64,000 nt of DNA from Lutraria lutraria (taxonomy: Eukaryota; Mollusca; Bivalvia; Venerida; Mactridae), in assembly GCA_964023205.1 (NCBI GenBank), contig OZ026845.1:11976001-12040000 (forward strand), written 5' to 3'. The position numbers and the translations under genes were made by a program. Positions within the stretch are counted from its first letter, which is position 1; the number at the start of each line of letters is the position of its first letter. This document shows, piece by piece, positions 18,267 to 35,227 of the stretch. The notes beneath the pieces were generated by a model. That model saw only the letters and a program-made list of their open reading frames with translations. It had not been told where the DNA came from and ran no database searches.

Positions 18267-18327
18267 ATTTTCTTTCGAAAAGACATGGTGGCCCTGAAAA
18301 GGGCCGTTGGTGGTCCTGAAAAGGACC
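18267..18327 (-). terminator. Tandem histone-type 3' stem-loops plus U7-like element (left TIR)
   Basis: Read on the minus strand, downstream of the 218-aa gene: GGTCCTTTTCAGGACC (18327-18312), then GGCCCTTTTCAGGGCC (18305-18290), each preceded by CCAAC and followed by ACCA. Both have the 6-bp GG..CC stem and TTTC tetraloop of metazoan replication-dependent histone mRNAs. A purine tract GAAAGAAAAT (18276-18267) lies 13 nt past the second stem, where the U7-binding downstream element sits in histone genes. The first stem starts 31 nt after the stop codon. Confidence 0.8.
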
Positions 18328-18358
18328 GTTGGTTTCTTCATAGCTGTTAGTCGGATCT

Positions 18359-19015
18359 TCATTTCTTTATTTCTTTACCATACTTGCCCCGAGGTTGTTT
18401 CTCAAGGTCATGTTTTCGTTTCTTCGTTTCTGTCATCTCCGGTTTCTTTTTGTCATGCTCCGGTTTCTTTTTCTCATGCTCATGTTTTCGTTTCTTTGAA
18501 TCATACATAAACTGTACAGGTACAATCATTTCTTGTGGCTTAAACCGTACTTCTTGATTCTTCATGAGTCTGACCATCTCTTGCATGACTTGATTCATCT
18601 GTACCATTTCTTCCCTGATACCTTGTAGAACAGACAATCCCGTTGTAGGCTTTGCATCACCCGTTGTATTAGACTGTGTTTTCGCCATAGGGGGCTGTGT
18701 ATTCGTCATAGTGGGTTGTACATCTACCATAGGATGTGTATTCGTCATAGTGGGTTGTACATCTACCATGGGTTGTATCGGCTGTACATCTACCATGGGG
18801 GGTTGTACATCTACCATGGACTGTTGACTGTACTTAGGCAGGCTGTACAGTGGTTGACTGTATTGGCTGTACTGTGGCTGACTATACTGTAGTTGACCGT
18901 ACTTTGGCTGGTTGTACTTCGGCTGGTTGTAATGCATACCCGCATTCGGGTCTATCAACTCAGATGATTCTAGTGCTTCTCTCAATACATCGTATGGCAT
19001 GTTGAAGGACTCCAT
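18359..19015 (-). CDS. Accessory protein: Tyr/Gln-Pro repeats, coiled coil, Lys-rich tail (218 aa)
   Basis: Family unknown. From the N-terminus: a short helix-like start (MESFNMPYDVLREALESSEL); a Tyr-Gln-Pro-rich region of YNQPKY/YSQPQY units (about residues 28-63); four MVDVQP units alternating with TMTNT (about 66-110); a predicted coiled coil (about 130-157, REEMVQMNQVMQEMVRLMKN); and a strongly basic tail with KKRKHEHEKKKPEHDKKKPE-type repeats that could serve nuclear import or nucleic-acid binding. The ORF stays open to an ATG at 19072, but a minus-strand TATAAATA box at 19058-19051 lies between the two ATGs, so I place the start at 19015. Transcription runs outward into the TIR and ends at histone-type stem-loops. 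The low-complexity repeats suggest fast evolution. Confidence 0.75.
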   Translation of the reverse strand: MESFNMPYDVLREALESSELIDPNAGMHYNQPKYNQPKYGQLQYSQPQYSQYSQPLYSLPKYSQQSMVDVQPPMVDVQPIQPMVDVQPTMTNTHPMVDVQPTMTNTQPPMAKTQSNTTGDAKPTTGLSVLQGIREEMVQMNQVMQEMVRLMKNQEVRFKPQEMIVPVQFMYDSKKRKHEHEKKKPEHDKKKPEMTETKKRKHDLEKQPRGKYGKEIKK

Positions 19016-19050
19016 GCTAGATAATGAAAAAATAGTGTCTGCGCCGGGGG

Positions 19051-19058
19051 TATTTATA
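19051..19058 (-). promoter_or_regulatory. TATA box of the 218-aa accessory gene
   Basis: TATAAATA on the minus strand, followed by a GC-rich CCCCCGGCGC segment, 35 bp upstream of the ATG at 19015. This implies a very short leader and decides the start codon against the upstream ATG at 19072. Confidence 0.7.
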
Positions 19059-19091
19059 CTTTTTGCCTGCACGCGCCAGTGTTCTATTAGG

Positions 19092-19212
19092 TCAAGGTTA
19101 TTTTTGACACTTCAATTTTTTTTGTTTTTAATAAGTGTGACACTTTTTTTTGAACAAGTGTTTGACACGTCAAGGTCAATTGTGACACGTCAAGGCCGAC
19201 ACGTCAAGGTTA
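19092..19212. promoter_or_regulatory. Cluster of TCAAGG(TCA) half-sites
   Basis: TCAAGGTTA (19092), TCAAGGTCA (19170), TCAAGGCCG (19190) and TCAAGGTTA (19204); the last three are in repeated GACACGTCAAGG units spaced 20 and 14 bp apart. TCAAGGTCA is the extended monomer half-site bound by NR5A/FTZ-F1 and ERR nuclear receptors. The cluster lies upstream of the TATA box at 19051-19058. Binding is inference. Confidence 0.45.
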
Positions 19213-19220
19213 TATTGTAC

Positions 19221-19620
19221 ACATCAAACTATCACTTATATTTGTAGGAAATACTTTGTACACATTATACAATCACATCACTTTGTAGAAAAATACATCA
19301 TAAAATCACAGCAATTTGCATACATTTGTGGGAATACTTTGTACACATTATACTATCACAGCAATTTGAATACTGTACACTTAATATATACTATCACAGC
19401 TATTTGAATACTGTACACTTAATATATACTATCACAGCAATTTGAATACTGTACACTTAATATATACTATCACAGCACTTTGAATACTGTACACTTAATA
19501 TATACTATCACAGCACTTTGAATACTGTATACATTTGTTGAAAATGATTGTACATCACACATCATACTATCACAGCACTTTGTAGGAAAAAATGTTATAA
19601 TGTTTATAGAAAACTCTATA
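19221..19620. repeat. 38-bp tandem repeats (about 5 copies) with degenerate flanks
   Basis: Units starting TACTATCACAGCAATTTG and ending ACTGTACACTTAATATA begin at 19351, 19389, 19427, 19465 and 19503, exactly 38 bp apart. Related but decayed units (ATCACAGCA, TTTGTAGGAAA, TACACATTATAC) extend from about 19221 to 19620. There is no ORF. The stretch lies between two minus-strand genes and could be an enhancer or replication element; nothing in it decides which. Confidence 0.85.
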
Positions 19621-19672
19621 AAACGTACACTTACCCCACACCGTCTACGCACCAGCATATTAAGTTTATAAA

Positions 19673-19693
19673 TGACGTCATGATTTGACGTCA
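19673..19693. promoter_or_regulatory. Two CRE palindromes (TGACGTCA)
   Basis: TGACGTCA at 19673-19680 and 19686-19693, 13 bp apart. This is the full CREB/ATF site. A similar cluster lies at 34453-34500 near the other end of the element. Occupancy is inference. Confidence 0.5.
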
Positions 19694-19756
19694 TCAGATA
19701 GGAATGTAAATATAGTAGTAAATAGTAAAGTATGATAATATTGACAATATGAGAGT

Positions 19757-19817
19757 GATTCTTTCTGAATTGTATGGGGGGCCCTGAAAAGGGCCGTTGG
19801 TGGTCCTGAAAAGGACC
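19757..19817 (-). terminator. Tandem histone-type 3' stem-loops plus U7-like element (internal)
   Basis: On the minus strand, 19 nt after the stop of the 107-aa gene: GGTCCTTTTCAGGACC (19817-19802) and GGCCCTTTTCAGGGCC (19795-19780), with CCAAC before each and ACCA after the first. CAGAAAGAATC (19767-19757) follows 12 nt later and fits a U7-binding downstream element. The stem-loop module is the same as in the TIRs, but the flanks have diverged while keeping the AGAAAGAA-type tract, which suggests selection on the processing signal rather than simple carry-over. Confidence 0.8.
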
Positions 19818-19836
19818 GTTGGTGCTTGTATGGGGA

Positions 19837-20160
19837 TTAATGGCGTTGACCGCATCTCCCCATACAAGCGGGACACCACTTGTCCCATTTCTGGACATCC
19901 TTGGGGTCCGGCGTGGGTTGGTAGAGGTTCGACGGAACCTCCGTGAGCTCATCTTCCCAGTTCTCTGGGGTTGATTCTTGAGGGGTATCCCCCCAGTCCT
20001 CTTCCCCAGAGCTGACCACAACCTCCTCTGCGAACTTCTTCCCTTCTCTTAGGGTCTTCACCTCCAACCTCAACTCTTCTAGTTGCATTTCTAGTTGTTC
20101 AATATACAACCCTAAGGTTGTATACTTTCTCTTAATAATGTTAAGCGTACGTTGAGACAT
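19837..20160 (-). CDS. Accessory protein: coiled coil, acidic middle, Cys-rich C-terminus (107 aa)
   Basis: Family unknown. The N-terminal half is a predicted coiled coil (about residues 8-42, YIEQLEMQLEELRLEVKTLRE). It is followed by an acidic Ser/Glu segment (SSGEEDWGD) of the kind often phosphorylated by CK2, a Pro-rich linker, and a C-terminal CPACMGRC motif that could hold a metal ion together with another chain. The frame is open upstream to an ATG at 20268, but that extension crosses the CCAAT-box repeats of the intergenic promoter, so I use the ATG at 20160. The gene is divergent from the gene at 20345 and its transcript ends at a histone-type stem-loop pair. The coiled coil plus Cys-rich tail recalls the gene at the right end of the element. 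Confidence 0.7.
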   Translation of the reverse strand: MSQRTLNIIKRKYTTLGLYIEQLEMQLEELRLEVKTLREGKKFAEEVVVSSGEEDWGDTPQESTPENWEDELTEVPSNLYQPTPDPKDVQKWDKWCPACMGRCGQRH

Positions 20161-20223
20161 CTCGATACAGAATGAAACTAGATCAAGGTAAGGCCACTCA
20201 CTGACTATGATACAAGGACTCTG

Positions 20224-20276
20224 ATTGGTCCATTTTAACAGTATTTCATTGGTCCATTTTAACGGCACTTCATTGG
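20224..20276. promoter_or_regulatory. Three CCAAT boxes in 24-bp repeats, divergent promoter
   Basis: ATTGG (CCAAT on the minus strand) at 20224, 20248 and 20272, each within repeats of CATTGGTCCATTTTAAC spaced exactly 24 bp. They lie between the divergent genes at 20160 (minus) and 20345 (plus). CCAAT boxes bind NF-Y and are typical of cell-cycle and histone promoters. No clear TATA box was seen for either gene. Confidence 0.6.
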
Positions 20277-20344
20277 TCTGTTGTTGTCTAGGTCAGTTAG
20301 TGTTTTTTCATGTTCCATAGCTCATTTATGTTTCATGATTCAAC

Positions 20345-20572
20345 ATGGGCAACTGCTTGAAAAGTACTTCTGATGAACCTGATGAGTTACAAGAAGATGT
20401 TTGGGTGGTCAAGATGGGTAATTTGTACCCAGACTTGTCTGAATTTCAAGATACTTGTGTTGTCAAGATGGATATCAAGATGGGTAATTTATACCCTGAC
20501 CTTGGCATGTATTATGATGAGGATTTGAGAGCCAACTATTGGCGGTACTTATTTCTTGCAGAAATGCAATGA
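20345..20572 (+). CDS. Small predicted N-myristoylated protein with two YPDL late-domain motifs (75 aa)
   Basis: The N-terminus MGNCLKST fits an N-myristoylation signal (Gly2, Ser7) with an adjacent palmitoylatable Cys4, so the protein should sit on the inner face of membranes. The body is an imperfect duplication: VKMGNLYPDLSEF (about residues 22-34) and IKMGNLYPDLGMY (about 44-56). Each holds YPDL, the YPXnL late-domain class that recruits ALIX and the ESCRT machinery in enveloped retroviruses. The rest is acidic, ending in an aromatic helix-like stretch. The start has a good context (CAACATGGG). The stop is 10 nt from a histone-type stem-loop. I know no named Polinton family for it. A role in membrane association, egress or trafficking is inference from the two motifs. 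Confidence 0.72.
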   Translation: MGNCLKSTSDEPDELQEDVWVVKMGNLYPDLSEFQDTCVVKMDIKMGNLYPDLGMYYDEDLRANYWRYLFLAEMQ

Positions 20573-20582
20573 ATTACCCAAC

Positions 20583-20598
20583 GGCCCTTATTAGGGCC
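20583..20598 (+). terminator. Histone-type 3' stem-loop after the myristoylated-protein gene
   Basis: GGCCCTTATTAGGGCC starts 11 nt past the last base of the stop codon, with CCCAAC before and ACCA after. The stem is identical to the TIR copies while the loop is TATT instead of TTTC, so this is not a recent copy of the same module. A purine-rich CAAGCAAAGACAAAAG follows about 30 nt later, further than usual for a U7 site, so the downstream element is uncertain. Confidence 0.65.
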
Positions 20599-20780
20599 AC
20601 CATATGTGTTAGATTCGTTTTGTTTCTCAAGCAAAGACAAAAGCATATTACATTGTCTATCATTTTATTTTTGAAAACATTCTGAGTAACAAAGTACAAC
20701 AAAGTACAAAGTACAACACAATACAACTCACTTAGTCTCCAATTTAAGTCTATACACAATTGTCCAACACATTGTCCGGA

Positions 20781-21130
20781 TTACACAAAGTCACTCACAG
20801 TTTTTGTTGGATTCTTTTTGTATTTACGTTTTTTCTTACTCTGTTCTGCGTCCTGTAGATCGACCTGTTCACCTTGTTTCTTAGGACAGTCTGCGATGAA
20901 ATGTCCTTGTTCATGACAATAAAAGCATTCATTGTTGAAGGGTTCCGTACAGCTTGTAGAATAATGTCCTTTCTTTCCACAACGATAACACTTGATATGA
21001 TCCCATGTTACATTTTTCTGTCCACAGAGCTGATCCGCTAAGTTGTTAAGCTCTTTAATTTCTTCTTTAATGAATACATCAAAGTTTGATCTCGGTTCTC
21101 TTCAACTTGGTTCATTTTAGGATCGCTCAT
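20781..21130 (-). pseudogene. CCHC zinc-knuckle protein gene, frameshifted
   Basis: A minus-strand frame ending at 20781 encodes two perfect CCHC knuckles (C-x2-C-x4-H-x4-C) at 20990-20949 and 20927-20886, followed by a Lys-rich tail. This is a nucleic-acid-binding domain of the retroviral nucleocapsid/CNBP type. That frame has no ATG and opens only from about 21101. The ATG that fits the promoter, at 21130, lies in another frame that stops at 21038. The two frames overlap at 21041-21101 and differ by one base, with no classical slippery heptamer. So the gene is broken by an indel, has an assembly error, or uses an unusual shift. A TATAAAAG box 34 bp upstream and divergence from the polymerase gene support a once-real gene. 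Confidence 0.75.
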
Positions 21131-21163
21131 GTTGAAATGATAAAAAACGGACGGAGCGTACGT

Positions 21164-21171
21164 CTTTTATA
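21164..21171 (-). promoter_or_regulatory. TATA box of the zinc-knuckle gene
   Basis: TATAAAAG on the minus strand, 33 bp upstream of the ATG at 21130. The stretch downstream reads as GTCCGTTTTTTATC, and the complementary pattern AAAAAACGG(A)CGGAG also follows the polymerase TATA box, so the two divergent core promoters share a repeated element. Confidence 0.7.
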
Positions 21172-21207
21172 GAGTGTCACGCGTTGTGACCTTGAACTTT
21201 ATACAAG

Positions 21208-21216
21208 TATAAAAAA
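21208..21216 (+). promoter_or_regulatory. TATA box of the DNA polymerase gene
   Basis: TATAAAAAA, 27 bp before the ATG at 21244 and followed by CGGCGGAG. It is divergent from the minus-strand TATA box at 21171-21164. The 36 bp between the two boxes contains GTGTCACGCGTTGTGACC, a partly palindromic sequence. Confidence 0.7.
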
Positions 21217-21243
21217 CGGCGGAGAAGTTTTAAGATCATAATC

Positions 21244-24200
21244 ATGTCAGATACCGACAGTACTAGTGGTGAGGATGAACCTCCAACTAAACGAAGCAAG
21301 TTTGAGCCTGTGCGCGACTATTATGACATACAGTCACGCATGGAAAGAAAGTCAAGGAAATTCAAGACTCAATCTAGAGTATATGATGTGACATTTCAGC
21401 CGTATAATCAATCGTTTGAATTTACAAACAGGTTGTTTAATGATATGATGGATCAGCTCTACAAGAGATGTGAAGTGAAGTCGAATGATCGAGTTCGAGT
21501 ATCTATTCTACATCCTGATTTGGACTTTGGGATACATGTTCCGTTTAATAGGGCATCTCGTATTAGTGGAGATACATTGTTGGATGAAATTGAACGTGTG
21601 GCACAAAGTAACCGTCAATTTAAAATTCATGATGGGGCGGCACAGATGGAAATTACGCATATTGCTATGTCACAGGGATCCGGAAAGAAAACATTCAAGG
21701 CCTCAAACTTATTCAGTATGCGGAAGTCAAAGACAAGTGTTGTGTGTATTGACAATAGTAAAGACTCTATGTGTTTAGCTAGATCGATTGTGGTAGGACG
21801 GTGCAAAGTACATGAAAATCAAACCCCGGAATGGAAAAAACGATGGAATCTAATACGTCGCTCTAAGAAAAATCTTCAAAAATACGAAGCTGAAGCATTA
21901 TTAAAGCAAGTGGGTATTTCATCGGATCAGTCGTGTGGTATAGAAGAATACCAAAAACTACAGGACTATCTCTATCCAGGCTATGTGATTAAAATCCATC
22001 CACAACATTATGGAAGTGAATTGTTATTCAAACCACCTGCTATGACTGAAAAAAGTCGTGTGATTCATATCTTTCACCATGATAATCATTATGACTGTAT
22101 CGTATCCATTACCGGATTTCTCGGACGGGGTTATTATTGTGAATGGTGTGATATCAGTTATGATCACCGTGAAGGACACCAGTGTAACCATATTTGTCAG
22201 TGTTATGCTCACACCCTGTGCCCAGCAGGACAATCTATAAGATGTCCGGATTGCCGTCGCCTATTTCAGAGTCAGGCATGTTTTGACAATCATAAAACAA
22301 AAACGGGAAAACAACGTAAAACCATTTGTGAATCCGTATGGAATTGTAAGAAATGTGGGCAAAAGGTGATTAGAACGAAACGGAATCACGTTTGCCCAGG
22401 GACAAAGAAATGCAGGTGTTGTAAAGCCATAGTAGGACCAGATCATGACTGTTACATTCCAACGTATGAACCACCCGATAGAAAACAACCAGAAGTACCA
22501 TTCATCTTTTTTGATTTTGAATGTCGTTTTGATTCTGGAGAACATATCCCTAATTTTTGTGTGGCTCAACGTGCTTGTGGTGACTGTATGTGTAAGTCAG
22601 TGAAAACTCCATGTGAGTATTGTGAAGAGGTGAATGAAGCCAGACAAATGACATTCCGTGGTGAAAATACGTTACAACAATTCTGTACTTGGCTATTCCT
22701 CCCTACCCATCGAGGATCGACAGTGATAGCCCATAATGCTCAAGGCTATGACGCTCAGTTTATTCTTAGATATTTGGTCACTCAGGGGACGGCGAAACCC
22801 CAGTTGATTATGAATGGTAGTAAAATCATTCAATTGAGAGTGCATGGAATACGCATGATTGACTCCCTCAGTTTCCTGAGTATGCCTCTCTCCTATTTTC
22901 CCAATACATTTGGACTGACCGAGTTAGCCAAAGGATGGTTTCCATTCTATGCAAACACCTTGGCGTATCAAGATTATGTGGGACCTTATTTGCCGCTACA
23001 CTTTTACAAACCGGATAGTATGAAACCAGAGCGACGTGAAGAGTTTTTAACCTGGTACAATGAAAGAAAAGGTGACGTATTTGATTTTCAAAAGGAAATG
23101 GAGAAATACTGTCAATCGGATGTAGACATTTTAAGGCGCGGATGTGGAGAATTTCGTCAACAATTATTGGACAGTGATCAAATAGATCCATTTACTGAAG
23201 CTACCACGTTAGCTCAAGTGTGTAACAAAGCCTGGCGCAAAAATTCCATGCCACCTCATAGTTTAGCCGTGATTTCTGATGCCGGGTATCCCAATAAAAC
23301 CCGGTATTCCATAAAAGGCATACGTTGGCTACAAATGATGGCTGTCACAGAGGAGATACATATTCGGCATGCCTTGAATAACAAAGGCGAAGTCAAAATT
23401 GGACCTTATTACGTGGATGGCTATTGTCAAGAGACCAACACCGTGTATGAATTCATGGGATGTTGGTACCATGGGTGCCCCACCTGTTTTCCTAACCGAA
23501 GTACCATCAATCCGTATACTTTGAGAAGCATGCAACAGGCCTATCACGATACGTATAAACGACTGAAGACTTTGAAAGAACAGGGGTACCCTGTTGTGGT
23601 CATGTGGGAATGTGAATTTGATCAGCGTTGTCAAAAGGATCCTGCCTATAAGACAAGAGTGGAACGATTCTATCATGGTCAAGACCCGATTCAACCCAGG
23701 GAAGCTTTGTTCGGAGGTCGTACGAATGCCGTCCGACTGTATCATGAAGTAGACAACGGTCAAGAAATCAAATATGTGGATATTTGTTCTCTCTATCCGT
23801 ATGTGAACAAGTACAGGGCTTATCCGATAGGTCATCCAGTGATCATGAGTCAAGAACAAATTGATCAACAGCATATTGAGAAATACAAAGGACTGATTAA
23901 ATGCCGTGTTCTACCCCCGCAAGATTTATGGATGCCTGTCTTACCCATACACTGTAATAGTAAAATGGTGTTTACGCTATGCCGTACCTGTGCTGAGAAG
24001 GAGATGGATTATTGTACACATTCCCCGTATGAACGATTCTTGTATGGCACATGGACTCATGTTGAATTGGCTAAAGCTATTGCTTTAGGCTATCAAGTAT
24101 CAAAAGTGTATCATGTATGGCACTGGGATGAATGGAGTACGGACGTCTATCGGCAATACATTGACAAATACTTGAAAATGAAACAAGAGGCTAGTGGATA

Positions 24201-25035
24201 TCCTCCAGGGGTGGATACGGAAGAGGCTCAAGATAAATTTAAACAGGATTATTTTGAAGCAGAAGGAATTCGTTTGCAACAGGTGGAGAAAAATCCAGGA
24301 AAACGAGCTTTTGCCAAAACCATGCTGAATTGTCTCTGGGGTAAAAATGCTCAAACCAACCTCTTGCCTAAAACAGAGTATGTTCATCGATTGGACCAGT
24401 TCTACGGAATACTGAACGATCCTAAAAAGTCTGTGAAATATGCAGAGTGTTTTGATCATGATGAATTCATGTTAATGAATTATACTGATGAATCGGACAA
24501 AGCAGACCCTCATTCATCAGCCAATCCTGTGGTGGCTTCATTTGTGACGGCTTATGCTCGATTAGAACTGTACAAAGTGCTTGAACCTCTAGGAAAGAGA
24601 GTACTGTATTTTGACACAGACAGTTGTATGTACATTCATGACCCTGATGGCTATAATGTTCCTATTATCTCCAGTCGATTGGGAAAATGGACAGATGAGG
24701 TACCAAAGGGTCGTATTGTGAGATATGTCGCTTTAGGTCCAAAGAACTATGGCTATGAATACATTGAAAACGGTGAACTCCATCAAAAATGCAAAGTGAA
24801 AGGCATTACTTTAGACTACAATGCCACTCAACAAGTGAATTTCAATACGATGGTGGATTGTGTGAAAGACAGACATCATTATTCGACCGTAGTTGAATAT
24901 GCTTCTCGGATTAAACGTCATAAGGACAGAACCGTGACCAGTGAGAAACAAGTCAAAACATTTCGTTCGGTGTATACCAAACGTATTGTGGTCGAGAATC
25001 ATATGACTGTGCCTTATGGTTATCTACATGACTGA
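21244..25035 (+). CDS. PolB: Protein-primed family B DNA polymerase
   Basis: Replicates the linear element from a protein primer, using proofreading 3'-5' exonuclease and polymerase domains. Exonuclease motifs: Exo I FFDFEC (D424, E426), Exo II AHNAQGYD (N498, D503), Exo III YCQSD (Y622, D626). Polymerase motifs: A YVDICSLYPY (D846, SLYP 849-852), B KTMLNCLWG (K1025-G1033), C YFDTDS (D1124, D1126), then a KNY motif downstream. The insert between motifs A and B fits the TPR regions of protein-primed enzymes. The N-terminal 420 residues hold DSMCLARSIVV (D174, C177) and HHDNHYD (H282), which look like an OTU-type cysteine-protease-like fold, and a long Cys/His-rich stretch (about 300-410). At 1263 aa it is full length with no break. 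The start follows a TATA box at 21208. Confidence 0.97.
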   Translation: MSDTDSTSGEDEPPTKRSKFEPVRDYYDIQSRMERKSRKFKTQSRVYDVTFQPYNQSFEFTNRLFNDMMDQLYKRCEVKSNDRVRVSILHPDLDFGIHVPFNRASRISGDTLLDEIERVAQSNRQFKIHDGAAQMEITHIAMSQGSGKKTFKASNLFSMRKSKTSVVCIDNSKDSMCLARSIVVGRCKVHENQTPEWKKRWNLIRRSKKNLQKYEAEALLKQVGISSDQSCGIEEYQKLQDYLYPGYVIKIHPQHYGSELLFKPPAMTEKSRVIHIFHHDNHYDCIVSITGFLGRGYYCEWCDISYDHREGHQCNHICQCYAHTLCPAGQSIRCPDCRRLFQSQACFDNHKTKTGKQRKTICESVWNCKKCGQKVIRTKRNHVCPGTKKCRCCKAIVGPDHDCYIPTYEPPDRKQPEVPFIFFDFECRFDSGEHIPNFCVAQRACGDCMCKSVKTPCEYCEEVNEARQMTFRGENTLQQFCTWLFLPTHRGSTVIAHNAQGYDAQFILRYLVTQGTAKPQLIMNGSKIIQLRVHGIRMIDSLSFLSMPLSYFPNTFGLTELAKGWFPFYANTLAYQDYVGPYLPLHFYKPDSMKPERREEFLTWYNERKGDVFDFQKEMEKYCQSDVDILRRGCGEFRQQLLDSDQIDPFTEATTLAQVCNKAWRKNSMPPHSLAVISDAGYPNKTRYSIKGIRWLQMMAVTEEIHIRHALNNKGEVKIGPYYVDGYCQETNTVYEFMGCWYHGCPTCFPNRSTINPYTLRSMQQAYHDTYKRLKTLKEQGYPVVVMWECEFDQRCQKDPAYKTRVERFYHGQDPIQPREALFGGRTNAVRLYHEVDNGQEIKYVDICSLYPYVNKYRAYPIGHPVIMSQEQIDQQHIEKYKGLIKCRVLPPQDLWMPVLPIHCNSKMVFTLCRTCAEKEMDYCTHSPYERFLYGTWTHVELAKAIALGYQVSKVYHVWHWDEWSTDVYRQYIDKYLKMKQEASGYPPGVDTEEAQDKFKQDYFEAEGIRLQQVEKNPGKRAFAKTMLNCLWGKNAQTNLLPKTEYVHRLDQFYGILNDPKKSVKYAECFDHDEFMLMNYTDESDKADPHSSANPVVASFVTAYARLELYKVLEPLGKRVLYFDTDSCMYIHDPDGYNVPIISSRLGKWTDEVPKGRIVRYVALGPKNYGYEYIENGELHQKCKVKGITLDYNATQQVNFNTMVDCVKDRHHYSTVVEYASRIKRHKDRTVTSEKQVKTFRSVYTKRIVVENHMTVPYGYLHD

Positions 25036-25100
25036 CCTTGACCTTTTAGGATACCTTTTGGCCTAGAACAAGTCATCTAAAAGTCATTATTCATAAAGAC

Positions 25101-26340: not shown

Positions 26341-26379
26341 ACTTGCAAAGAACTCAATCATGTTTTATCTGGTTATACA

Positions 26380-26389
26380 AATAAATAAA
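26380..26389 (+). terminator. Polyadenylation signal (overlapping AATAAA pair)
   Basis: AATAAATAAA followed by TGTTTTTCTT, a U/GU-rich downstream region. It lies between the 124-aa gene and the ATPase gene. This is an ordinary cleavage and polyadenylation signal, in contrast to the histone-type ends of the accessory genes. Confidence 0.75.
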
Positions 26390-26429: not shown

Positions 26430-27077
26430 ATGGAGTCCAGTTTACTTTTTAAGCATCCTTGCAATATGTTTATCTCAGGCCCTAGTGGCTCTGGTAAAAC
26501 ACAATTTGTAAAAAAGGTGTTGGAATACAAATCAGATTTGTTTCAAGTAGTACCAGAGCGTATTGTATGGTGTTACAAAGAATGGCAAGTAGCCTATGCA
26601 CAGTTACAAGAACAAGAACCTAGTATTCGGTTCATACAGGGGATACCTGACGAGGATGAAGAGATAGTAGAGGATACATCCATTCCTCATTTAATTATAT
26701 TTGATGACATGCTTGGTGATAAAGATGAAGAGAAAATCAAATTATGGTTTACACGAAAAGGTCACCATCGTAATGCTAGTGTGATCTACATTACACAAAA
26801 CATGTTTCAACAATCGAAAGCCAGTCGTACCCTGAGTTTAAATGCACATTACATGATCTTATTTCAAAACACAAGAGATAAAGGACAAATCAAAGTGTTG
26901 GCGAATCAAATTCAATTGCCACACTTGTTACCCGCTTATCAAGATGCTATCTCTACACCTCATGGGTATTTAGTGATTGACTTTCACCCTCAAACACCAG
27001 ACAGTTATCGGTTAAGAACAGATATTTTTCATCACTGGATCACTGGAGAAAAACGTGGGCCAGTTGTGTATATATAA
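26430..27077 (+). CDS. FtsK/HerA-type genome-packaging ATPase
   Basis: Pumps element DNA into the capsid. Walker A GPSGSGKT is at residues 17-24 and Walker B LIIFDDML at about 88-95 (D92, D93). The sensor-like stretch VIYITQN follows about 30 residues later, as in A32-like packaging ATPases of Polintons, adintoviruses and nucleocytoplasmic DNA viruses. At 215 aa it is normal length for the family. The gene opens the capsid-related block and its stop codon overlaps the TATA box of the next gene. It is intact, with no odd features. Confidence 0.95.
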   Translation: MESSLLFKHPCNMFISGPSGSGKTQFVKKVLEYKSDLFQVVPERIVWCYKEWQVAYAQLQEQEPSIRFIQGIPDEDEEIVEDTSIPHLIIFDDMLGDKDEEKIKLWFTRKGHHRNASVIYITQNMFQQSKASRTLSLNAHYMILFQNTRDKGQIKVLANQIQLPHLLPAYQDAISTPHGYLVIDFHPQTPDSYRLRTDIFHHWITGEKRGPVVYI

Positions 27078-27078
27078 A
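27069..27078 (+). promoter_or_regulatory. TATA box overlapping the ATPase stop codon
   Basis: TATATATAAA contains the TAA stop of the ATPase and lies 33 bp before the ATG of the core-protein gene. The same overlap recurs for the next gene at 28229, which suggests separate compact promoters rather than one long message. Confidence 0.55.
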
Positions 27079-27111
27079 CATCGTTTACTCATATAAGATC
27101 ATTCAGTCATC

Positions 27112-28233: not shown

Positions 28234-28236
28234 AAG
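28229..28236 (+). promoter_or_regulatory. TATA box overlapping the core-protein stop codon
   Basis: TATAAAAG containing the TAA stop of the 373-aa gene, 35 bp upstream of the ATG at 28272. Confidence 0.6.
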
Positions 28237-28271
28237 CTGTGAAGAAGTAAAAACAGGTATTATTTGACATA

Positions 28272-28643: not shown

Positions 28644-29386
28644 AGAAAATGGCTATCGTCCCATTCAAAATGCTAGAAGAGATGAATCGATGGAAAACAG
28701 AACAACGACCACGTTTACCTCCTCCCCCGCAAGTCAGTCAAACATCCGATTTACAGAAACAAATGGGAGACGTATTACAAAATGAATCGTTGTCTGAATC
28801 AGAAAAAGCACAACACTATGGGCAAGTCTTGCAAAAGTTTCAACTGTCTCATCAAAAAGCACGTGAACCGGCTACTCTGGCTGGAACGGCTGCACCGGTT
28901 GCACCGGTTGTTCCAGCTGCTCAAGGTGCACAAGGTGCACAAGCGGCTCCTGCTACATTGACGGATCGGATTCTTGAAAGTGTTCCTACTACCATGCGTC
29001 GAAAAACTCAGCTTTTATTACACTTTCTACAAAATCATCCCCACATGTCATGGAATGATCAAGGGATGTTGGAATATCATGGAAAACCAATACAAGGATC
29101 CAACATTATTGATTTGGTCAATGATGTCATACGTCATAGAAAAGGGTCGGAGCCTAGAGGATGGGAACAGTTTTCTAGTGGACTAAGAGATGTCAATGTA
29201 CCACAAGAAGTGATAGGAAATAAACGGAGATGGTCATGGATGCAAAAAGCAGACGATTCGGAGGAAGATGAGTTATTTGATAGTTTTGTTGAGCCTCCTT
29301 CACCTATAAGTAAACGGATGAAAGCAGAACCTATAAGTAAACCTGTCAAACAGATGAAAGCAGAACCTAAGTGGGAAGCCTACTAG
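28640..29386 (+). CDS. Conserved Polinton protein with Pro-rich N-terminus (248 aa)
   Basis: A protein type I recognise from metazoan Polintons and adintoviruses, without a settled function; it is probably a virion or assembly factor. N-terminal PFKMLEEMNRWKTEQ helix, PPPP tract, DLQKQMGDVL..EKAQHYGQVLQKF coiled region, then an Ala/Pro/Gln linker (about residues 75-115). The conserved domain follows (about 116-200): RILESVPTTMRRKTQLLLHF, a SWNDQGMLEYHGKPI turn, and GSNIIDLVNDVIRHRKG. The C-terminus is acidic (DDSEEDELFD) and carries repeated MKAEP units that fit a loose SUMO-acceptor pattern. It overlaps its upstream neighbour by 4 bp. Confidence 0.82.
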   Translation: MKKMAIVPFKMLEEMNRWKTEQRPRLPPPPQVSQTSDLQKQMGDVLQNESLSESEKAQHYGQVLQKFQLSHQKAREPATLAGTAAPVAPVVPAAQGAQGAQAAPATLTDRILESVPTTMRRKTQLLLHFLQNHPHMSWNDQGMLEYHGKPIQGSNIIDLVNDVIRHRKGSEPRGWEQFSSGLRDVNVPQEVIGNKRRWSWMQKADDSEEDELFDSFVEPPSPISKRMKAEPISKPVKQMKAEPKWEAY

Positions 29387-29391
29387 ACAAC

Positions 29392-30465
29392 ATGAACAAA
29401 AAGGTAGACAGTCTGTTACATCAGATTTATTATGATCCCCATCATCCGGCTGGTTTTGGTGGGGTAGAACGTCTTACTACAGCAGCTCGAACTCAACTGA
29501 AATCCATTACGCCAAGTCAAGTGCGATCCTGGTTGAAGGGACAAAAGACCTATACCCTGCACAAACCTATCCGTAGGGCATTCTCGAGACGGAAAACGAT
29601 TGTGGGTGGTATTGATCATCAATGGCAAGCTGATTTGGCAGACATGCAATCCTTGGCTCAGTACAACACCCCTTATCGATATTTGTTGTGTGTCATTGAC
29701 GTGTTTTCAAAATATGCTTGGGTCGTTCCCCTCAAGGATAAAACAGGGCTCACATTGGTGGAAGCGTTTCGCTCTATTCTTAAAACGAGACAACCTAAAG
29801 CGTTGCAAACCGATAAAGGAACAGAATTCAAGAATCAAAGGTTTCAACAGTTTTTAGACAAAGTAGGGATTCATTATTTTACGACTGAAAACCCAGAAAC
29901 GAAGGCTAGTATAGTGGAACGTTTTCAACGGACCTTAAAATCACGCATGTGGAAATACTTTACGCATCATAAAACACGAAGGTATATTCAGGTATTGCCT
30001 GATCTCGTGCATGCCTATAATCATCGTGTTCATCGTAGTATACAAATGACACCCGTATCCGTGAATGAGAATAACGAATCTCAAGTGGCCTTGACCTTGT
30101 ATGGAAAATCAAGAAAAAAAGCGTCGACGACCCTTCATGTGGGAGATATTGTTCGTATCAATAAAACAAAACGTACATTTGATAAAGGTTATCTACCCAA
30201 CTGGACCACTGAACTGTTTAAAGTGATTCAAGTCAAAAAGACCTCTCCTGCTACTGTGAAATTGACTGATTTAGACGGAGAACCCATATTGGGTTCGTTT
30301 TATTTCTCTGAAGTACAGGTTATAAAAGATGATGCTATCTATGAAATTGAATCAGTGCTCGCCCATCGCCAGAGTAAGGTAGACGGAAGACGAGAAATTA
30401 AAGTGCATTGGAAAGGTTATCCTTCGAAATTTGACAGTTGGATTCCCGAATCCCATCTCGTTTGA
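29392..30465 (+). CDS. Retroviral-type (rve) integrase with C-terminal chromodomain
   Basis: Inserts the element and makes the 6-bp duplication. The rve catalytic core shows the DDE triad: D81 (WQADLADM), D141 (LQTDKGTEF) and E176 (SIVERFQRTLK), with 34 residues between the last two, plus DVFSKYAWVVPLK between the first two. The N-terminal YYDPHHPAGFGGVERL motif is typical of Polinton integrases. Residues about 315-355 are a chromodomain (YEIESVLAHR, KVHWKGYPSKFDSWIPESHL) that can bind methylated histone tails and steer insertion. The frame is open slightly upstream from a GTG, but the first ATG is at 29392, 5 bp after the preceding stop. All catalytic residues are present. Confidence 0.96.
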   Translation: MNKKVDSLLHQIYYDPHHPAGFGGVERLTTAARTQLKSITPSQVRSWLKGQKTYTLHKPIRRAFSRRKTIVGGIDHQWQADLADMQSLAQYNTPYRYLLCVIDVFSKYAWVVPLKDKTGLTLVEAFRSILKTRQPKALQTDKGTEFKNQRFQQFLDKVGIHYFTTENPETKASIVERFQRTLKSRMWKYFTHHKTRRYIQVLPDLVHAYNHRVHRSIQMTPVSVNENNESQVALTLYGKSRKKASTTLHVGDIVRINKTKRTFDKGYLPNWTTELFKVIQVKKTSPATVKLTDLDGEPILGSFYFSEVQVIKDDAIYEIESVLAHRQSKVDGRREIKVHWKGYPSKFDSWIPESHLV

Positions 30466-30497
30466 AGTTAGTTTATTATACAACTAATAAATACATC

Positions 30498-30743
30498 ATG
30501 TCTCAAACTGATACGGCCAGTGTGGTAGTGACTGCCTCAGAGCAAGTCAAATTGTGTGAACCCAAAAATAAGGTCACTTTTTTGTCACAAATTGTAGTGG
30601 TATTTATTATTATTACCGTATCGCTATTTAATTTGTGTTTTCAACGACCCGATCGAGAATTGTGGCTTCTGCTTTTAAGTAGTTCTCTAGGTTATATTCT
30701 ACCGAATCCCTCCTTGAAATTCAATAAACCTAAATCAACATGA
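30498..30743 (+). CDS. Small membrane protein with two predicted TM segments (81 aa)
   Basis: Two hydrophobic helices: SQIVVVFIIITVSLFNLCF (about residues 30-48) and LWLLLLSSSLGYILP (about 55-69), ending in a polar PNPSLK tail. Small proteins with this LW..LLSS.LGY.LPNP signature occur in many metazoan Polintons; the function is unknown and a virion membrane role is only possible. The start is the ATG at 30498 (the frame is open upstream only from a TTG inside the integrase gene). The stop overlaps the next ATG (ATGA). Confidence 0.82.
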   Translation: MSQTDTASVVVTASEQVKLCEPKNKVTFLSQIVVVFIIITVSLFNLCFQRPDRELWLLLLSSSLGYILPNPSLKFNKPKST

Positions 30744-31582
30744 GTTCGTTTTACATCACACTTATGAGTGATAGCTCTATGGATTTATTCCAAGACAATA
30801 CGCAATGTTGTTTTCGTACCAAACTGGCAAAACCCATCCATCTCAATAAACAAGATTGGGAAATTGCCTTAGTGGAAATGATTGTTCCTAGTCAGGTCAT
30901 TAATGTCACTGAAGAAGAGCGACATTTCTACATTGTCACACACGATCCTGTCCTGGGTAAGGCCTTAGAAAACTTTGAGACATATTGTACTCTCCCCAAT
31001 AAAGAAGAAAAAGGTGTACGACTTTGTATTCCTGTAGGAACTTATGTCACACCCCAACATTTGATCGAGACGATTGACTTTACCGTGAAAGATCAATTAG
31101 GTAAAATATTTAGACAGAAAGGCCTTCGATTCACCATGGGTTTTTCAGGACAAAGTAAACGCGCAAAACTGGACAGTTCGGATCAACTAGGCATTCAGTT
31201 TCATCCCCACATGTTTATTAAACTGGGGGGAGCCCCTGATAGTTCTCCTACCATCTTTTTTAAAGACACTCCGGAACCGTTTCCTCATGGCGTAGATATT
31301 AACATGGGTCATAATCATTTGTTTGTTTATTCCGACCTTGCGTCTTATACCTATTTGGGAAACATAGAAGCCCCCATCTTACGTGTAGCTCCATTTGATC
31401 CGAGAACGAAAGCAGGAACTAACCCCCATATTCATTTCGAGTTCTTGAATTTACACTATGTACCACTGGCTAAAGCCGACTTTGACACCATCACTATCCA
31501 TATAAGGGGTGACACTGGCCAGTCTATTCAGTTTATTCATGGGAAGTCTATGGTGAAACTACACCTACGTCAAAGACAATGA
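30740..31582 (+). CDS. Penton / minor capsid protein (single jelly roll)
   Basis: Forms the capsid vertices. 280 aa, a normal length for Polinton minor capsid proteins. Recognisable landmarks: N-terminal MSSFYITLMSDSSMDLF, WEIALVEMIVPSQ (about residues 40-52), VGTYVTPQHLIETI, and the conserved C-terminal block VYSDLASYTYLGNIEAPILR followed by FEFLNLHYVPLAKADFDTI and a beta-strand-rich tail. It lies just upstream of the small basic protein and the MCP, the standard order. Intact; 4-bp overlaps on both sides. Confidence 0.92.
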   Translation: MSSFYITLMSDSSMDLFQDNTQCCFRTKLAKPIHLNKQDWEIALVEMIVPSQVINVTEEERHFYIVTHDPVLGKALENFETYCTLPNKEEKGVRLCIPVGTYVTPQHLIETIDFTVKDQLGKIFRQKGLRFTMGFSGQSKRAKLDSSDQLGIQFHPHMFIKLGGAPDSSPTIFFKDTPEPFPHGVDINMGHNHLFVYSDLASYTYLGNIEAPILRVAPFDPRTKAGTNPHIHFEFLNLHYVPLAKADFDTITIHIRGDTGQSIQFIHGKSMVKLHLRQRQ

Positions 31583-31944
31583 TACCTACTTACCAAGGTC
31601 AACCTCGACAATATGGACACGGACTTGGATCCATGTTTAAGAAAGCCATGAAAAGAATCATGCCTTTACTGAATCCATTGGTGAAATCTGGAGTTCACAC
31701 CTTGAAAAAAGAAGGACTCCAGCAAGGAAGAGCCGCTATCAATGATATCTTGACAGGATCAAATGCTAAAAAAGTAATACGAAAACGTGGAGCCTCTGTG
31801 TTAAAAGATGTGGGTGAATCCTTGCTACGTGCTGTGGCCAGCCCTAAAAGACGTATAAAGAGCAAACCTGTCAGGAAAAGACCTCATTCGAAACTTCATC
31901 ATCGCCGAGTTAAGCAGGCCAGACCTCTTGATATTTTCGATTAA
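31579..31944 (+). CDS. Small basic virion-type protein (121 aa)
   Basis: N-terminal YGHGLGSMFKKAMKRIMPLL amphipathic helix, a KEGLQQGRAAINDILTGSNAKKVIRKRG middle, and a very basic C-terminal third (PKRRIKSKPVRKRPH). This GHGLGS..K...P.L pattern with a basic tail is recurrent between the penton and MCP genes of Polintons and adintoviruses. By position and character it resembles adenovirus pVI/pX-like proteins that bind capsid interior or DNA. No motif proves the role. Confidence 0.82.
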   Translation: MIPTYQGQPRQYGHGLGSMFKKAMKRIMPLLNPLVKSGVHTLKKEGLQQGRAAINDILTGSNAKKVIRKRGASVLKDVGESLLRAVASPKRRIKSKPVRKRPHSKLHHRRVKQARPLDIFD

Positions 31945-31946
31945 TC

Positions 31947-33245
31947 ATGATGCAACACGGTTCCTGTGAATGTAGTAAGACAGAGTTGGATGTGTCTGTT
32001 GTGCCACCTACCATGACAGCCATGCAAGAAGGTCAATGGACTGAGCATTATCCCATTTCTGCCCTGGACAATAATGCTCCGATTGAATTTGTGATTCCTG
32101 CACAGACAGAAAAATGGACAGATCTGAATCAATCTTACCTGTACCTAAAACTAAAAATTATACAGGCAGATGGTACAGACCTAGCGGCCGACAGTGAAAT
32201 TGCTACCGTCAACAATTTCTTTCACAGCATGTTCTCAAGCATTGATGTGTACCTGAATAATAAACTGATCACCAGCAATGCGGACACGTATGGCTATCGG
32301 GCATACATAGAAAATTTACTCTCCTTCACCTCAAGCTGTAAAGACACTCAGCTTCAGGCGTTAGAGTTATGGGCTGAAGACACCGCTGGTCATATGCTCG
32401 AAAAAGTACATGACGGGGATAACAAGGGCTATGGTAAGAGACGTGCTCGTGTCCATCAAAGTCGTGTGGTGGAACTATGTGGACGGCTTCATTTGGATCT
32501 GATGATGCAAGATAAATATTTACCCAATGGTATGGAAATACGCTTAAGACTAAACAAAGCGTCACCTCAATTCTGTCTCATGAGTACTTCACCGGCTAAA
32601 ATCAAGTTTCTAGAAGCAGGATTCAATGTAAGAACAGTAGATTTACTGCCAGTGGTAGCCAATCAACTCAATCAACAGATTGCTCAACATAACATGAAAA
32701 TCCCCATCCGACGAACTGAAGTAAAAACATTTACGATTCCTAACGGTCAACGATCCAAGATTGAAGATCATTTATTTCAAGGTCAATTGCCAAAACGGCT
32801 TATCATCGGTATGGTAAGAAATGGAGACATGAATGGAGACATGGCTACCAACCCCTTTGAGTTCCGTCATTTTACACTGAATCATCTAGAAGTCAGCATT
32901 GACGGAAAAAGTATTCATAACAAAGCGTTTCAACCCAATTTTGAAACGGGAGAAGTTCTAAGATCCTACATGTCACTCTATCAAGCGACAGGAGCTCTTG
33001 GTCTCAATCGTTCATTTGGATTGAGCATGAATGATTATCGGAACGGATACACACTGTGGGGGTTGGACTTGACAGCAGATCAAGGTTGCGAGGAAGGTCA
33101 ACTCCATCCTATAAAAACGGGCAATCTGAGATTGGAATTTCACTTTGGAACAGCACTTGCACAAGCCATCAACGTGATTGTATTTGCGGAATACGACAAT
33201 CAAATTGAAATCAATCAATTCAGAGAAGTGCTTCTAGATTATTAA
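31947..33245 (+). CDS. Major capsid protein (double jelly roll)
   Basis: Main shell protein, expected to form pseudo-hexameric trimers. 432 aa. Typical landmarks: WTEHYPISALDNNAPIEFVI near residues 28-50, a strand-rich KWTDLNQSYLYLKLKI, NNFFHSMFSSIDVYLNNKL (about 88-106), YGYRAYIENLLSF, and LMMQDKYLPNGMEIRLRLN (about 186-205), then LEVSIDGKS and a C-terminal HFGTALAQAINVIVFAEYD block before a short tail (EINQFREVLLDY). It starts 3 bp after the preceding stop; the ATGATG allows either of two adjacent Met codons. Its presence makes the element a predicted virus, not only a transposon. Confidence 0.95.
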   Translation: MMQHGSCECSKTELDVSVVPPTMTAMQEGQWTEHYPISALDNNAPIEFVIPAQTEKWTDLNQSYLYLKLKIIQADGTDLAADSEIATVNNFFHSMFSSIDVYLNNKLITSNADTYGYRAYIENLLSFTSSCKDTQLQALELWAEDTAGHMLEKVHDGDNKGYGKRRARVHQSRVVELCGRLHLDLMMQDKYLPNGMEIRLRLNKASPQFCLMSTSPAKIKFLEAGFNVRTVDLLPVVANQLNQQIAQHNMKIPIRRTEVKTFTIPNGQRSKIEDHLFQGQLPKRLIIGMVRNGDMNGDMATNPFEFRHFTLNHLEVSIDGKSIHNKAFQPNFETGEVLRSYMSLYQATGALGLNRSFGLSMNDYRNGYTLWGLDLTADQGCEEGQLHPIKTGNLRLEFHFGTALAQAINVIVFAEYDNQIEINQFREVLLDY

Positions 33246-33246
33246 G

Positions 33247-33711
33247 ATGGAAGACATGGATATTGAACACCTGGAAAAAGGACAAGATTACGAAATGAAG
33301 TTATTGGCGTATCCTTGTTGTACAAGTTCAAGGACGGACTTTTTACAAGAGTGCTTGAATCATCACGTCACAGAAGCACTCCAATCTTTAATTTATAATC
33401 AAGTGCATAAAGACTGTTATGGTTGTCGAGTGAATCATCCTAGTCAAGTACAACATGTACTCTGCTTATACACGAATACGGAAGAGTGGACAGAACTTTA
33501 CATTCAAAAAGCGATTCAACGTTTGGACGTGTTCAAGGTCATGGAAAAGTGGTATCCTGAATTAGTGACCTTGACCGATAGTGAAAAAGGAGACGCGTGT
33601 CGATTATGGATTCAATTTAAAGAAGAACTCACTCAGAATCAGTTCATAGATCAATGGATCAGTGTTTGTGCTGAACGTGTCAACAGAAATTGGCATTATG
33701 GAGACGAATGA
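33247..33711 (+). CDS. Conserved Polinton protein of unknown function (154 aa)
   Basis: Begins one base after the MCP stop codon. Helical, with several Cys/His residues (YPCCTSS, CYGCRVNHPSQ) and Trp-rich C-terminus (RLWIQFKEELTQ, FIDQWISVCAE). Proteins of this size and pattern (HPSQ.QH.LC then helical Trp-rich end) recur next to the protease gene in metazoan Polintons. The four Cys/His could bind a metal ion. It overlaps the protease gene by 14 bp in another frame. Confidence 0.75.
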   Translation: MEDMDIEHLEKGQDYEMKLLAYPCCTSSRTDFLQECLNHHVTEALQSLIYNQVHKDCYGCRVNHPSQVQHVLCLYTNTEEWTELYIQKAIQRLDVFKVMEKWYPELVTLTDSEKGDACRLWIQFKEELTQNQFIDQWISVCAERVNRNWHYGDE

Positions 33712-34288
33712 ACTACAATACCTATTAGATCATTCACCGTTATTAAAGCCACTACGTGCACGTGTTTGTGCTAAAGATCAATTACCTTCAGAGAAACCGC
33801 ATGACGTGAAAGCCTATATTGTGAATACCCACAACGGAAATCAACCTGGAGAACACTGGGTGGCTCTTTATTTAAAAGACAATAAAGCAGTGTACTTTGA
33901 TTCCTACGGATTACCACCTTTCGAAGAGATTCTATCCTTTGTGAAAAATCATGCCAACAAAACTTATCTGTGGAATGCCATGAGAATACAAGGCGATATG
34001 TTACCGGTGTGTGGTGTGTATTGTCTATTCGCTTTGGATTTTATCTCACGTGAATGTGACTTGAACCAGATACTGTTAACCCGATTCAAACCGGACATGT
34101 ATGGAAAAAATGACACTTATGTGACGCATTGGTTTCATCAATATTATGGTACTTATTACATGCATGCTCAATATGTGAACAAGTGTGGACAAAAGTGTTG
34201 TGCTCAACGTAACTCTAGACCAGAAGGTCACAGACGTTTGTATCATAGTATCATACATAGAAATACAACTCTTTATGGTGATCATTAA
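33698..34288 (+). CDS. Adenain-type (C5/ULP1-like) maturation cysteine protease
   Basis: Cleaves capsid proteins during virion maturation. Catalytic set: H53 (GEHWVALY), D68 (YFDSYG), oxyanion Q98 (RIQGD) and nucleophile C105 (VCGVYC). The order H-D-Q-C and spacing match the adenovirus protease and ULP1 family. 196 aa, normal for the family. The open frame reaches further upstream only from a GTG inside the previous gene, so the ATG at 33698 is chosen. The C-terminal 30 residues (CGQKCCAQRNSRPEGHRR) are Cys/Arg-rich. An AATAAA signal follows at 34360. Confidence 0.95.
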   Translation: METNELQYLLDHSPLLKPLRARVCAKDQLPSEKPHDVKAYIVNTHNGNQPGEHWVALYLKDNKAVYFDSYGLPPFEEILSFVKNHANKTYLWNAMRIQGDMLPVCGVYCLFALDFISRECDLNQILLTRFKPDMYGKNDTYVTHWFHQYYGTYYMHAQYVNKCGQKCCAQRNSRPEGHRRLYHSIIHRNTTLYGDH

Positions 34289-34359
34289 ATGTAAACAATG
34301 TTTCATAAAATGTTTCATGTAGTTTCATGTAGTTTCTTGTTACTGTTTCTTGTTACAAA

Positions 34360-34365
34360 AATAAA
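34360..34365 (+). terminator. Polyadenylation signal of the capsid-protease block
   Basis: AATAAA about 70 bp after the protease stop, preceded by T-rich repeats of GTTTCTTGTTAC and followed by GTTT/GTGTCTG-rich sequence. Confidence 0.7.
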
Positions 34366-34452
34366 AGTTTAGAAAAACTGAAACTAGGTGTCTGTTGTCT
34401 TTTTTCTAAGTTCATAAAATTACCAATCAAGCTCCGCACATGCATCGGCGCG

Positions 34453-34516
34453 TGACGCCATCCAACCATAGGGTGACGTCATCCAAGCAATATGACGTCA
34501 TCCAACCACGAGAGTG
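34453..34516. promoter_or_regulatory. CRE-type repeats upstream of the right-end gene
   Basis: TGACGCCA (34453), TGACGTCA (34474) and TGACGTCA (34493), each followed by TCCAA, spaced 21 and 19 bp, then a GGGCGG GC box at about 34516. The sites fit CREB/ATF and Sp1 binding and probably form the promoter of the last gene. They overlap the most upstream in-frame ATG of that gene, which argues for a later start. Confidence 0.55.
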
Positions 34517-34581
34517 GGCGGCGTAATACAATACTCCGTCTTACAATGCCTCATTTCCTTCTGAGAACTCAAACGCTCAAG

Positions 34582-35025
34582 ATGGAGGCTTTATTCAATG
34601 AACTCAAAACAGCAAAACAACTGACTGAAAAACAGAGCAGGGTATGGCGTTCAATCAGTCGCTTAGCGGCTAGCATTGTTAGAAAAAGGGAACGTGATCT
34701 TCAAACCATTGGTGAGACTTTGAATACCATTGAAACCAATCGATTTCATCATAGAGAAGAATTATCTCAAATGCGAGAGCAATTTCGAGATCAAGTCAGA
34801 GAAAGGCAGCGAGATGCTCGGGAACGAACGGCGAATAGACAACGAGAACAACAACAACAAGAAGAAGAGCATTGGCGTATCATCACTACCGCTCAAGTTG
34901 AGTACACGGAACAACCACCAGTACCAGAACAGGAATGGTCCTGTGGGGATCTAACATGCAGGCTCTGCTATCCCCCACCAGACTGCCAATGCGAACTATG
35001 TACCCAACCAGATCAGTCAGCATAG
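34582..35025 (+). CDS. Accessory protein: coiled coil with Cys-rich tail (147 aa)
   Basis: Family unknown. A long, highly charged helix (about residues 1-110: MEALFNELKTAKQL, RERQRDARERTANRQREQQQQ) predicted to be a coiled coil, followed by a Pro-rich link and a Cys-rich end, CGDLTCRLC then DCQCELC, with six Cys that could hold zinc. The frame is open to ATGs at 34492 and 34546, but the first lies inside the CRE repeats. The ATG at 34582 has the best context (AAGATGG). The gene ends at the right TIR and is followed 12 nt later by tandem histone-type stem-loops. Architecture resembles the 107-aa gene near the left end. Confidence 0.7.
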   Translation: MEALFNELKTAKQLTEKQSRVWRSISRLAASIVRKRERDLQTIGETLNTIETNRFHHREELSQMREQFRDQVRERQRDARERTANRQREQQQQEEEHWRIITTAQVEYTEQPPVPEQEWSCGDLTCRLCYPPPDCQCELCTQPDQSA

Positions 35026-35037
35026 ACAACTATCAAC

Positions 35038-35098
35038 GGTCCTTTTCAGGACCACCAACGGCCCTTTTCAGGGCCACCATGTCTTTTCGAAAGAAAAT
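35038..35098 (+). terminator. Tandem histone-type 3' stem-loops plus U7-like element (right TIR)
   Basis: GGTCCTTTTCAGGACC (35038-35053) and GGCCCTTTTCAGGGCC (35060-35075), 22 bp apart, with CAAC before and ACCA after each. GAAAGAAAAT (35089-35098) follows 13 nt past the second stem. They lie directly downstream of the 147-aa gene on its coding strand, so the TIR supplies a 3'-end signal to the outward-facing gene at each end of the element. Confidence 0.8.

Positions 35099-35114: not shown

Positions 35115-35227
<113 letters not shown>

Follow-up and report, generated by a model that had tools for sequence, protein, structure and literature searches.

The element and its accessory genes

The stretch of DNA analysed here (the window) comprises 64,000 nucleotides (nt) of the genome of the bivalve Lutraria lutraria (contig OZ026845.1, positions 11,976,001 to 12,040,000, forward strand) and contains, at 18076-35374, a mobile element of the Polinton/Maverick kind, in which four accessory genes are each followed by hairpins resembling those at the 3' end of replication-dependent histone mRNAs. 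The same six bases, GCTATT, stand on both sides of the element (18070..18075 and 35375..35380) as a 6-bp target-site duplication, and its ends are formed by terminal inverted repeats, detected as inverted pairs I1 (100%) and I2 (99%): the left repeat (18076..18331) contains one hairpin doublet, and the right one (35034..35374) carries the mirrored doublet and is lengthened by a CA repeat. Judged by its viral-type PolB, A32-type ATPase, retrovirus-like integrase, terminal inverted repeats and 6-bp duplication, the element is a Polinton/Maverick, as the original prediction had recognised, although the interval that it gave (18267..35098) was too narrow.

The accessory genes flank the block of core genes, with g218 (18359..19015, minus strand), g107 (19837..20160, minus) and g75 (20345..20572, plus) on the left and g177 (34492..35025, plus) on the right. 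They are named after the length in amino acids (aa) of their open reading frames (ORFs); the sizes predicted earlier hold for the three left-hand genes, but the right-hand one, given as 147 aa, is open for 177 aa, the shorter figure corresponding to a later ATG. None of the four gave a Pfam match above cut-off, and in a large protein database g107 has two relatives, both about 86% identical.

Histone-type hairpins behind the accessory genes

Seven 16-base hairpins were located by pattern: two behind g218 (SL1, 18312..18327; SL2, 18290..18305; minus strand), two behind g107 (SL1, 19802..19817; SL2, 19780..19795; minus), one behind g75 (20583..20598, plus) and two behind g177 (SL1, 35038..35053; SL2, 35060..35075; plus). 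All are in sense with the gene directly upstream, so that the prediction of seven histone-type stem-loops after four genes, none of them antisense, is borne out at every site and strand. The first hairpin begins 31, 19, 10 and 12 bases after the stop codon of g218, g107, g75 and g177, respectively; the short sense spacing announced earlier is thus confirmed, with a lower bound of 10 rather than 9 nt. When the window was scanned with the Rfam 15 covariance model RF00032 (curated cut-off, 34 bits), the cut-off was reached at three sites, namely both terminal repeats, which are one sequence (35.8 bits each, at 18310-18264 and 35055-35101), and g107 (34.0 bits at 19800-19756), in each case at SL2.

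Such hairpins are not expected by chance. Fully paired, AAC-flanked GG..CC 16-mers number seven in the element and none in the remaining 46,550 bases of the window, as compared with a mean of 0.025 when the element was dinucleotide-shuffled 200 times; a looser definition yields 10 against 0.19 expected, a count in which three of the 10 places were not inspected individually. On folding, the tandem pair forms two separate hairpins, with z-scores of -3.8 to -4.2 for the doublets and of -2.1 for g75, a value matched by 5 of 200 shuffles. The seven hairpins are not independent, since both terminal doublets are one sequence mirrored in the inverted repeats (pair I2, 89 nt, 99%), to which the g107 doublet is more distantly related (pair I3, 81 nt, 79%). 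To go by these alignments, the hairpins have fewer than seven origins, perhaps only two.

Downstream of the stems, a candidate U7-binding purine core, GAAAGA, was found by word search at +14 from the SL2 stem of g218 (18271..18276, minus), at +15 from that of g107 (19760..19765, minus) and, in the mirror image of the g218 module, at +14 from that of g177 (35089..35094, plus). Two of the three distinct modules, i.e. those of the terminal repeat and of g107, thus carry the core at histone spacing. The word CTCTCAT, common to the host H1 and H4 genes, the terminal repeat and g107, was discarded as insignificant, at least one such word being shared in 864 of 5,000 shuffles.

Comparison with the histone genes of the host

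The host genome contains a tandem histone cluster, in the sampled repeats of which the H3, H4, H2B and H2A genes carry the hairpin GGCCCTTTTTAGGGCC, 28-30 nt past the stop codon, and H1 carries GGTCCTTTTCAGGACC. Letter for letter, SL1 of the element equals the H1 hairpin, and a single loop base separates SL2, and likewise the hairpin of g75, from that of the core histones. The flanks differ, being CAAC in the element and AAAC or CAAA in the histone genes, which argues that the hairpin module of the element was not newly copied from the end of a host gene. With the words searched, purine cores are found at +12 in H3 and H2A, and none is so placed in H1, H4 and H2B. Alternative hairpin cores with T at stem position 4 are at background level in the host (4 matches versus 2 in the reversed control). 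The RNA-binding domain of a host SLBP is encoded in two pieces on one contig (C10; E 7.9e-14 and 1.4e-5). By a single protein, H2B, the host is most likely a bivalve: the nearest named full-length matches are entries assigned to a symbiont bin from the clam Ctena orbiculata (97%, taken as contamination by clam DNA) and to Dreissena polymorpha (96%).

Putative poly(A) signals of the core genes

The core block includes PolB (21244..25035, plus; DNA_pol_B_2, 2.6e-38), an A32-type packaging ATPase (26430..27077, plus; 3.9e-08), an integrase with a chromodomain (29392..30465, plus; domain search), a 432-aa ORF (31947..33245, plus) and a protease-like ORF (33698..34288, plus). The 432-aa ORF, which gave no convincing sequence match in Pfam, PHROGs or the PDB, would be the major capsid protein by its position, and the protease-like ORF has a weak, sub-threshold Peptidase_C5 match (14.0 bits against a cut-off of 21.3; E 0.04). 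The hexamer AATAAA is found by word search, on the plus strand, after a 124-aa ORF (26380..26385), after the integrase (30486..30491) and 71 nt past the protease stop codon (34360..34365); the third of these hexamers is preserved in 20 of 20 further copies of the element, in which the surrounding DNA is 80-95% identical. To judge from these words, the core genes appear to use an ordinary poly(A) signal. By contrast, the four hairpin genes have neither AATAAA nor ATTAAA in the 120 nt that follow their stop codons in the window and, among the copies, no poly(A) signal lies within 80-100 nt past the hairpin module of g107 (0/19) or g75 (0/19).

Copies across the genome

In the genome searched (728.5 Mb, 71 contigs), the ACCA-flanked hairpin pattern has 1,711 matches (856 + 855) and the g75-type hairpin 337 (160 + 177), with none in the reversed controls; as a full copy contributes five of the former and one of the latter, both counts lead to about 340 copies. 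Integrase matches free of internal stop codons are 112 of the 114 scored, and the family may be a young, possibly still active burst. The 14 integrase positions considered on contig C1 all fall inside hairpin-bearing copies (the right end of one copy being estimated, and two positions beyond the listed stretch being excluded). Two foreign integrase queries, meant to reveal other Polinton families in the host, gave only matches of 53-54% and 39-40%, read as belonging to the family of the window (114 of 758 and 116 of 787 candidates scored).

The copies compared in detail are 20 others on contig C1 with both ends in the list of pattern matches, and are, therefore, not a random sample; for one of them (copy 14) the stretch analysed ends short of g107 and g75, and its g75 hairpin is known from the genome-wide pattern search. 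Among the 16-mers chosen in these copies by their CAAC-type flank, 137 of 138 pair fully. The ORFs just upstream are, besides short overlapping ones without a match, homologues of the four accessory genes (83-99.5% identity), and the first hairpin lies up to 66 nt from the stop codon. Two copies retain the hairpins of g107, and one that of g75, although no intact reading frame for the gene was detected there. A perfect hairpin also persists in an old remnant with 72% likeness over 453 bp. The number of hairpins also differs by copy, with arrays of three or four at a spacing of 22 or 29 bases (L093, L061, L139, L160 and L161).

Conservation is best illustrated by g107, in which the hairpins and their 5' flank show 0/37 variable columns, as opposed to 22/70 third codon positions (p 2.8e-5); among the aligned copies it is only for this gene that the hairpin is clearly conserved more tightly than the coding sequence. 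The g75 hairpin is likewise invariant (0/16 versus 9/70 third codon positions), and so are the next 40 columns. The stretch of the downstream element shows 0/20 variable columns in g218, versus 30/40 immediately after it, and 0/20 in g177, versus 5/40 in the gap-rich repeat that follows. Where the hairpins of g177 and g218 do vary, pairing is nearly always preserved.

Pairing in RNA or in DNA

Whether it is the RNA or the DNA that pairs was addressed through G.U and C.A intermediates in hairpin stems, genome-wide: both arms of a stem share their sequence context, so that T.G and C.A intermediates should be equally frequent unless the pairing of one strand matters. Intermediates of the G.U type number 50 and those of the C.A type 14 (all 64 inspected, in 60 stretches). 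Because slippage between hairpins and amplification of copies add to these counts, the events not being independent, restricted counts were relied upon, i.e. 27 versus 3 when only the leading hairpin of doublets that were normal in other respects was considered, and 12 versus 2 by distinct flanking background (p 0.013). The excess of G.U, though weakened by amplification and by exchange between hairpins, is suggestive of stem pairing in RNA.

Other features of the accessory genes

The g75 product (20345-20572, plus) starts with MGNC, which we take to be a likely myristoylation and palmitoylation site, and carries two LYPDL words, presumably akin to retroviral late (ALIX-binding) motifs; both words are kept in all distinct g75 copies compared save one, in which the second reads LYPYL. 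The products of g177 (34935-35025) and g107 (19837-19880) end in CxxC-type cysteine pairs after a charged, coiled-coil-like stretch, and these pairs are conserved between copies.

With regard to upstream sequences, g107 and g75 diverge from one promoter (20161-20344), in which three CCAAT boxes are spaced by about 24 bp, and 3-4 CCAAT words are found near the divergence in 19 copies; CCAAT boxes also lie upstream of host H3, H2B and H2A, and not of H4. Three TGACGT words are found upstream of g218 (19167-19206, minus), and two copies of TGACGTCA, containing such words, near the start of g177 (34474-34500, plus), all of which resemble CRE/ATF sites; several core ORFs have a TATA box rather than TGACGT words.

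Relation to known systems

Replication-dependent histone mRNAs have been called the only known animal protein-coding mRNAs in which a hairpin replaces the poly(A) tail at the 3' end (accessible text of PMC6303110). The ends described here are like them in the 6-bp GG..CC stem, the four-base U-rich loop and the CAAC and ACC flanks, in the position of the hairpin just past the stop codon with, in two of three modules, a purine core downstream, and in hairpin cores that match those of the host's own histone genes. They are unlike them in following non-histone genes of a mobile element, in being often tandem (two, sometimes three or four) and in the departures of g75, considered below.

Among mobile elements, PolB, A32-type ATPase, chromodomain integrase, inverted repeats and 6-bp duplication are shared with Polintons/Mavericks and adintoviruses, from which the present element would be set apart, as far as the papers and the eight distant loci examined go, by its histone-type 3' ends. 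Adintoviruses are defined by a PolB with an N-terminal OTU-like domain, a hexon recognisable by BLASTp and a chromodomain integrase (PMC11071296, in the text accessible); the element has the chromodomain integrase, the sole one of these features compared. The literature searched, mainly as titles and the beginnings of abstracts and with few subscription papers, yielded, among the papers listed, no description of histone-type ends in a Polinton, an adintovirus or another DNA virus, in keeping with the remark in the original prediction that no such description was known for Polintons; the accessible parts of PMC11071296, PMC7026596 and PMC1924863 describe none for Polintons or adintoviruses, and the word 'stem-loop' has no occurrence in that of the first. 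A known signal is thus found in a known kind of element, and it is their combination that is new within the literature so covered.

In mimivirus and in virophages, which are relatives of Polintons, a hairpin after the stop codon also marks the mRNA end, the palindromes being of no known fixed sequence. In the element, on the other hand, letters, flanks and downstream element are of the type of the host histone genes.

In the IMG/VR database, no match to the strict hairpin pattern was found, and no relative by a single-sequence PolB query or an integrase alignment; the one match to a looser pattern lies in a phage contig whose ORFs are phage-like and was attributed to chance. Among 50 stretches of genome contigs that matched an integrase pattern, eight (L001-L008) encode a relative; these Polinton-like contigs are filed in bacterial metagenome-assembled genomes and are probably eukaryotic contamination.

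Interpretation

Taken together, these observations make it likely that the accessory genes of this Polinton carry histone-type 3' ends while its core units have AATAAA signals, i.e. that two kinds of mRNA 3' end coexist in one element. In the scheme proposed, the host SLBP would bind the hairpin, or tandem hairpins, just past the stop codon of an accessory gene, the U7 snRNP would pair with the downstream purine element, and the transcript would be cleaved after the hairpin without keeping a poly(A) tail; by analogy with histone messages, SLBP would further the export and translation of the mRNA and confine it to S phase, the period in which the replication factors of the host are available. 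The scheme as a whole, in which four accessory genes make SLBP-bound, poly(A)-less and S-phase-linked mRNAs from exchangeable tandem hairpin cassettes, core genes are polyadenylated, and the timing of expression depends on which kind of 3' end a gene has, is held with slightly better than even confidence, SLBP binding, U7 cleavage, the lack of poly(A) and S-phase coupling being the steps that we infer.

Several observations weigh against this interpretation. The g75 hairpin scores 31.0 bits with RF00032 (20578-20623), 3 bits short of the cut-off, lacks a purine core at histone spacing (among the words searched) and has 4/20 columns variable among copies in the stretch where the downstream element would be expected. 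There is no clear contrast with third codon positions in g218 (SL1 2/16 and SL2 0/16 variable versus 4/70), and none in g177 (3/16 in each hairpin versus 5/70); moreover, exchange can make terminal-repeat copies uniform, and SL2 has been lost from one left terminal repeat. U7 was not found in the host with Rfam RF00066 (E 1e-3; 65 of 192,230 candidates scored), a search in which the control genomes gave none; a U7-like pattern occurs at six places in the host versus three in the control, none with a convincing 3' hairpin by eye. The stem-loop search in other Polintons that the original prediction had suggested detected no hairpin in the eight distant loci (pattern on 8/8; Rfam on 6/8, L002 and L006 being left out), and is a weak test. 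Finally, AATAAA occurs on the minus strand within the last codons of g218 in the window (18371), 7 nt before the stop codon, which would in principle permit polyadenylation of g218 transcripts upstream of the hairpins, and in the copies AATAAA or ATTAAA follows the downstream element within 80 nt at 9 of 39 terminal-repeat ends. Thus, the earlier reading of the accessory mRNAs is upheld in part: histone-type ends are well supported at the level of sequence by host-like cores, a host SLBP, the purine core in two of three modules, retention, the bias towards RNA pairing and the AATAAA of core units, the lack of poly(A) and the link to S phase are presumed, and the AATAAA and ATTAAA words just described speak against a clean split between the two kinds of end.

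The last two observations are also what speaks for dual ends, in which the hairpins would be working SLBP sites with part of the mRNA polyadenylated nearby, giving forms for dividing and for resting cells, as in the dual processing reported for H2A.X (accessible text of PMC7807067); the lack of poly(A) signals past the g107 and g75 modules of the copies counts against it, and we regard it as unlikely. That four of the seven hairpins lie inside the terminal inverted repeats could suggest a role as DNA, in replication, integration or packaging at the element ends, but the other three are internal and follow genes, all seven are in sense with the gene upstream, the flanks and purine core fit the histone RNA signal, and a DNA palindrome would show no preference for G.U over C.A, so that this role is very improbable. 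Little credit is likewise given to passive capture, by which a host histone 3' end, acquired once, would have spread with the element without function: the identity of SL1 with the H1 core, and the youth of a family whose scored integrase matches are nearly all free of stop codons, would fit, yet flanks and downstream sequence are unlike those of the host histone genes, the hairpins stand behind four different genes, the 72%-alike remnant keeps a perfect one, and those of g107 are invariant while third codon positions vary. It is most improbable that the main role of such ends is, rather than S-phase timing, the storage of maternal mRNA or translation driven by SLBP in germ cells and embryos, even if the molecular signal would be the same and eggs and embryos are rich in histone messages.

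Should the proposal of histone-type ends on Polinton accessory genes be correct, a high-copy element ending four unrelated genes by a hairpin would break the rule that reserves this kind of end to histones, and a mobile element would be borrowing cell-cycle control at the level of the mRNA end. Genes of this kind would be missed by poly(A)-selected RNA sequencing, and the family would offer hundreds of natural variants for probing what SLBP and U7 require.

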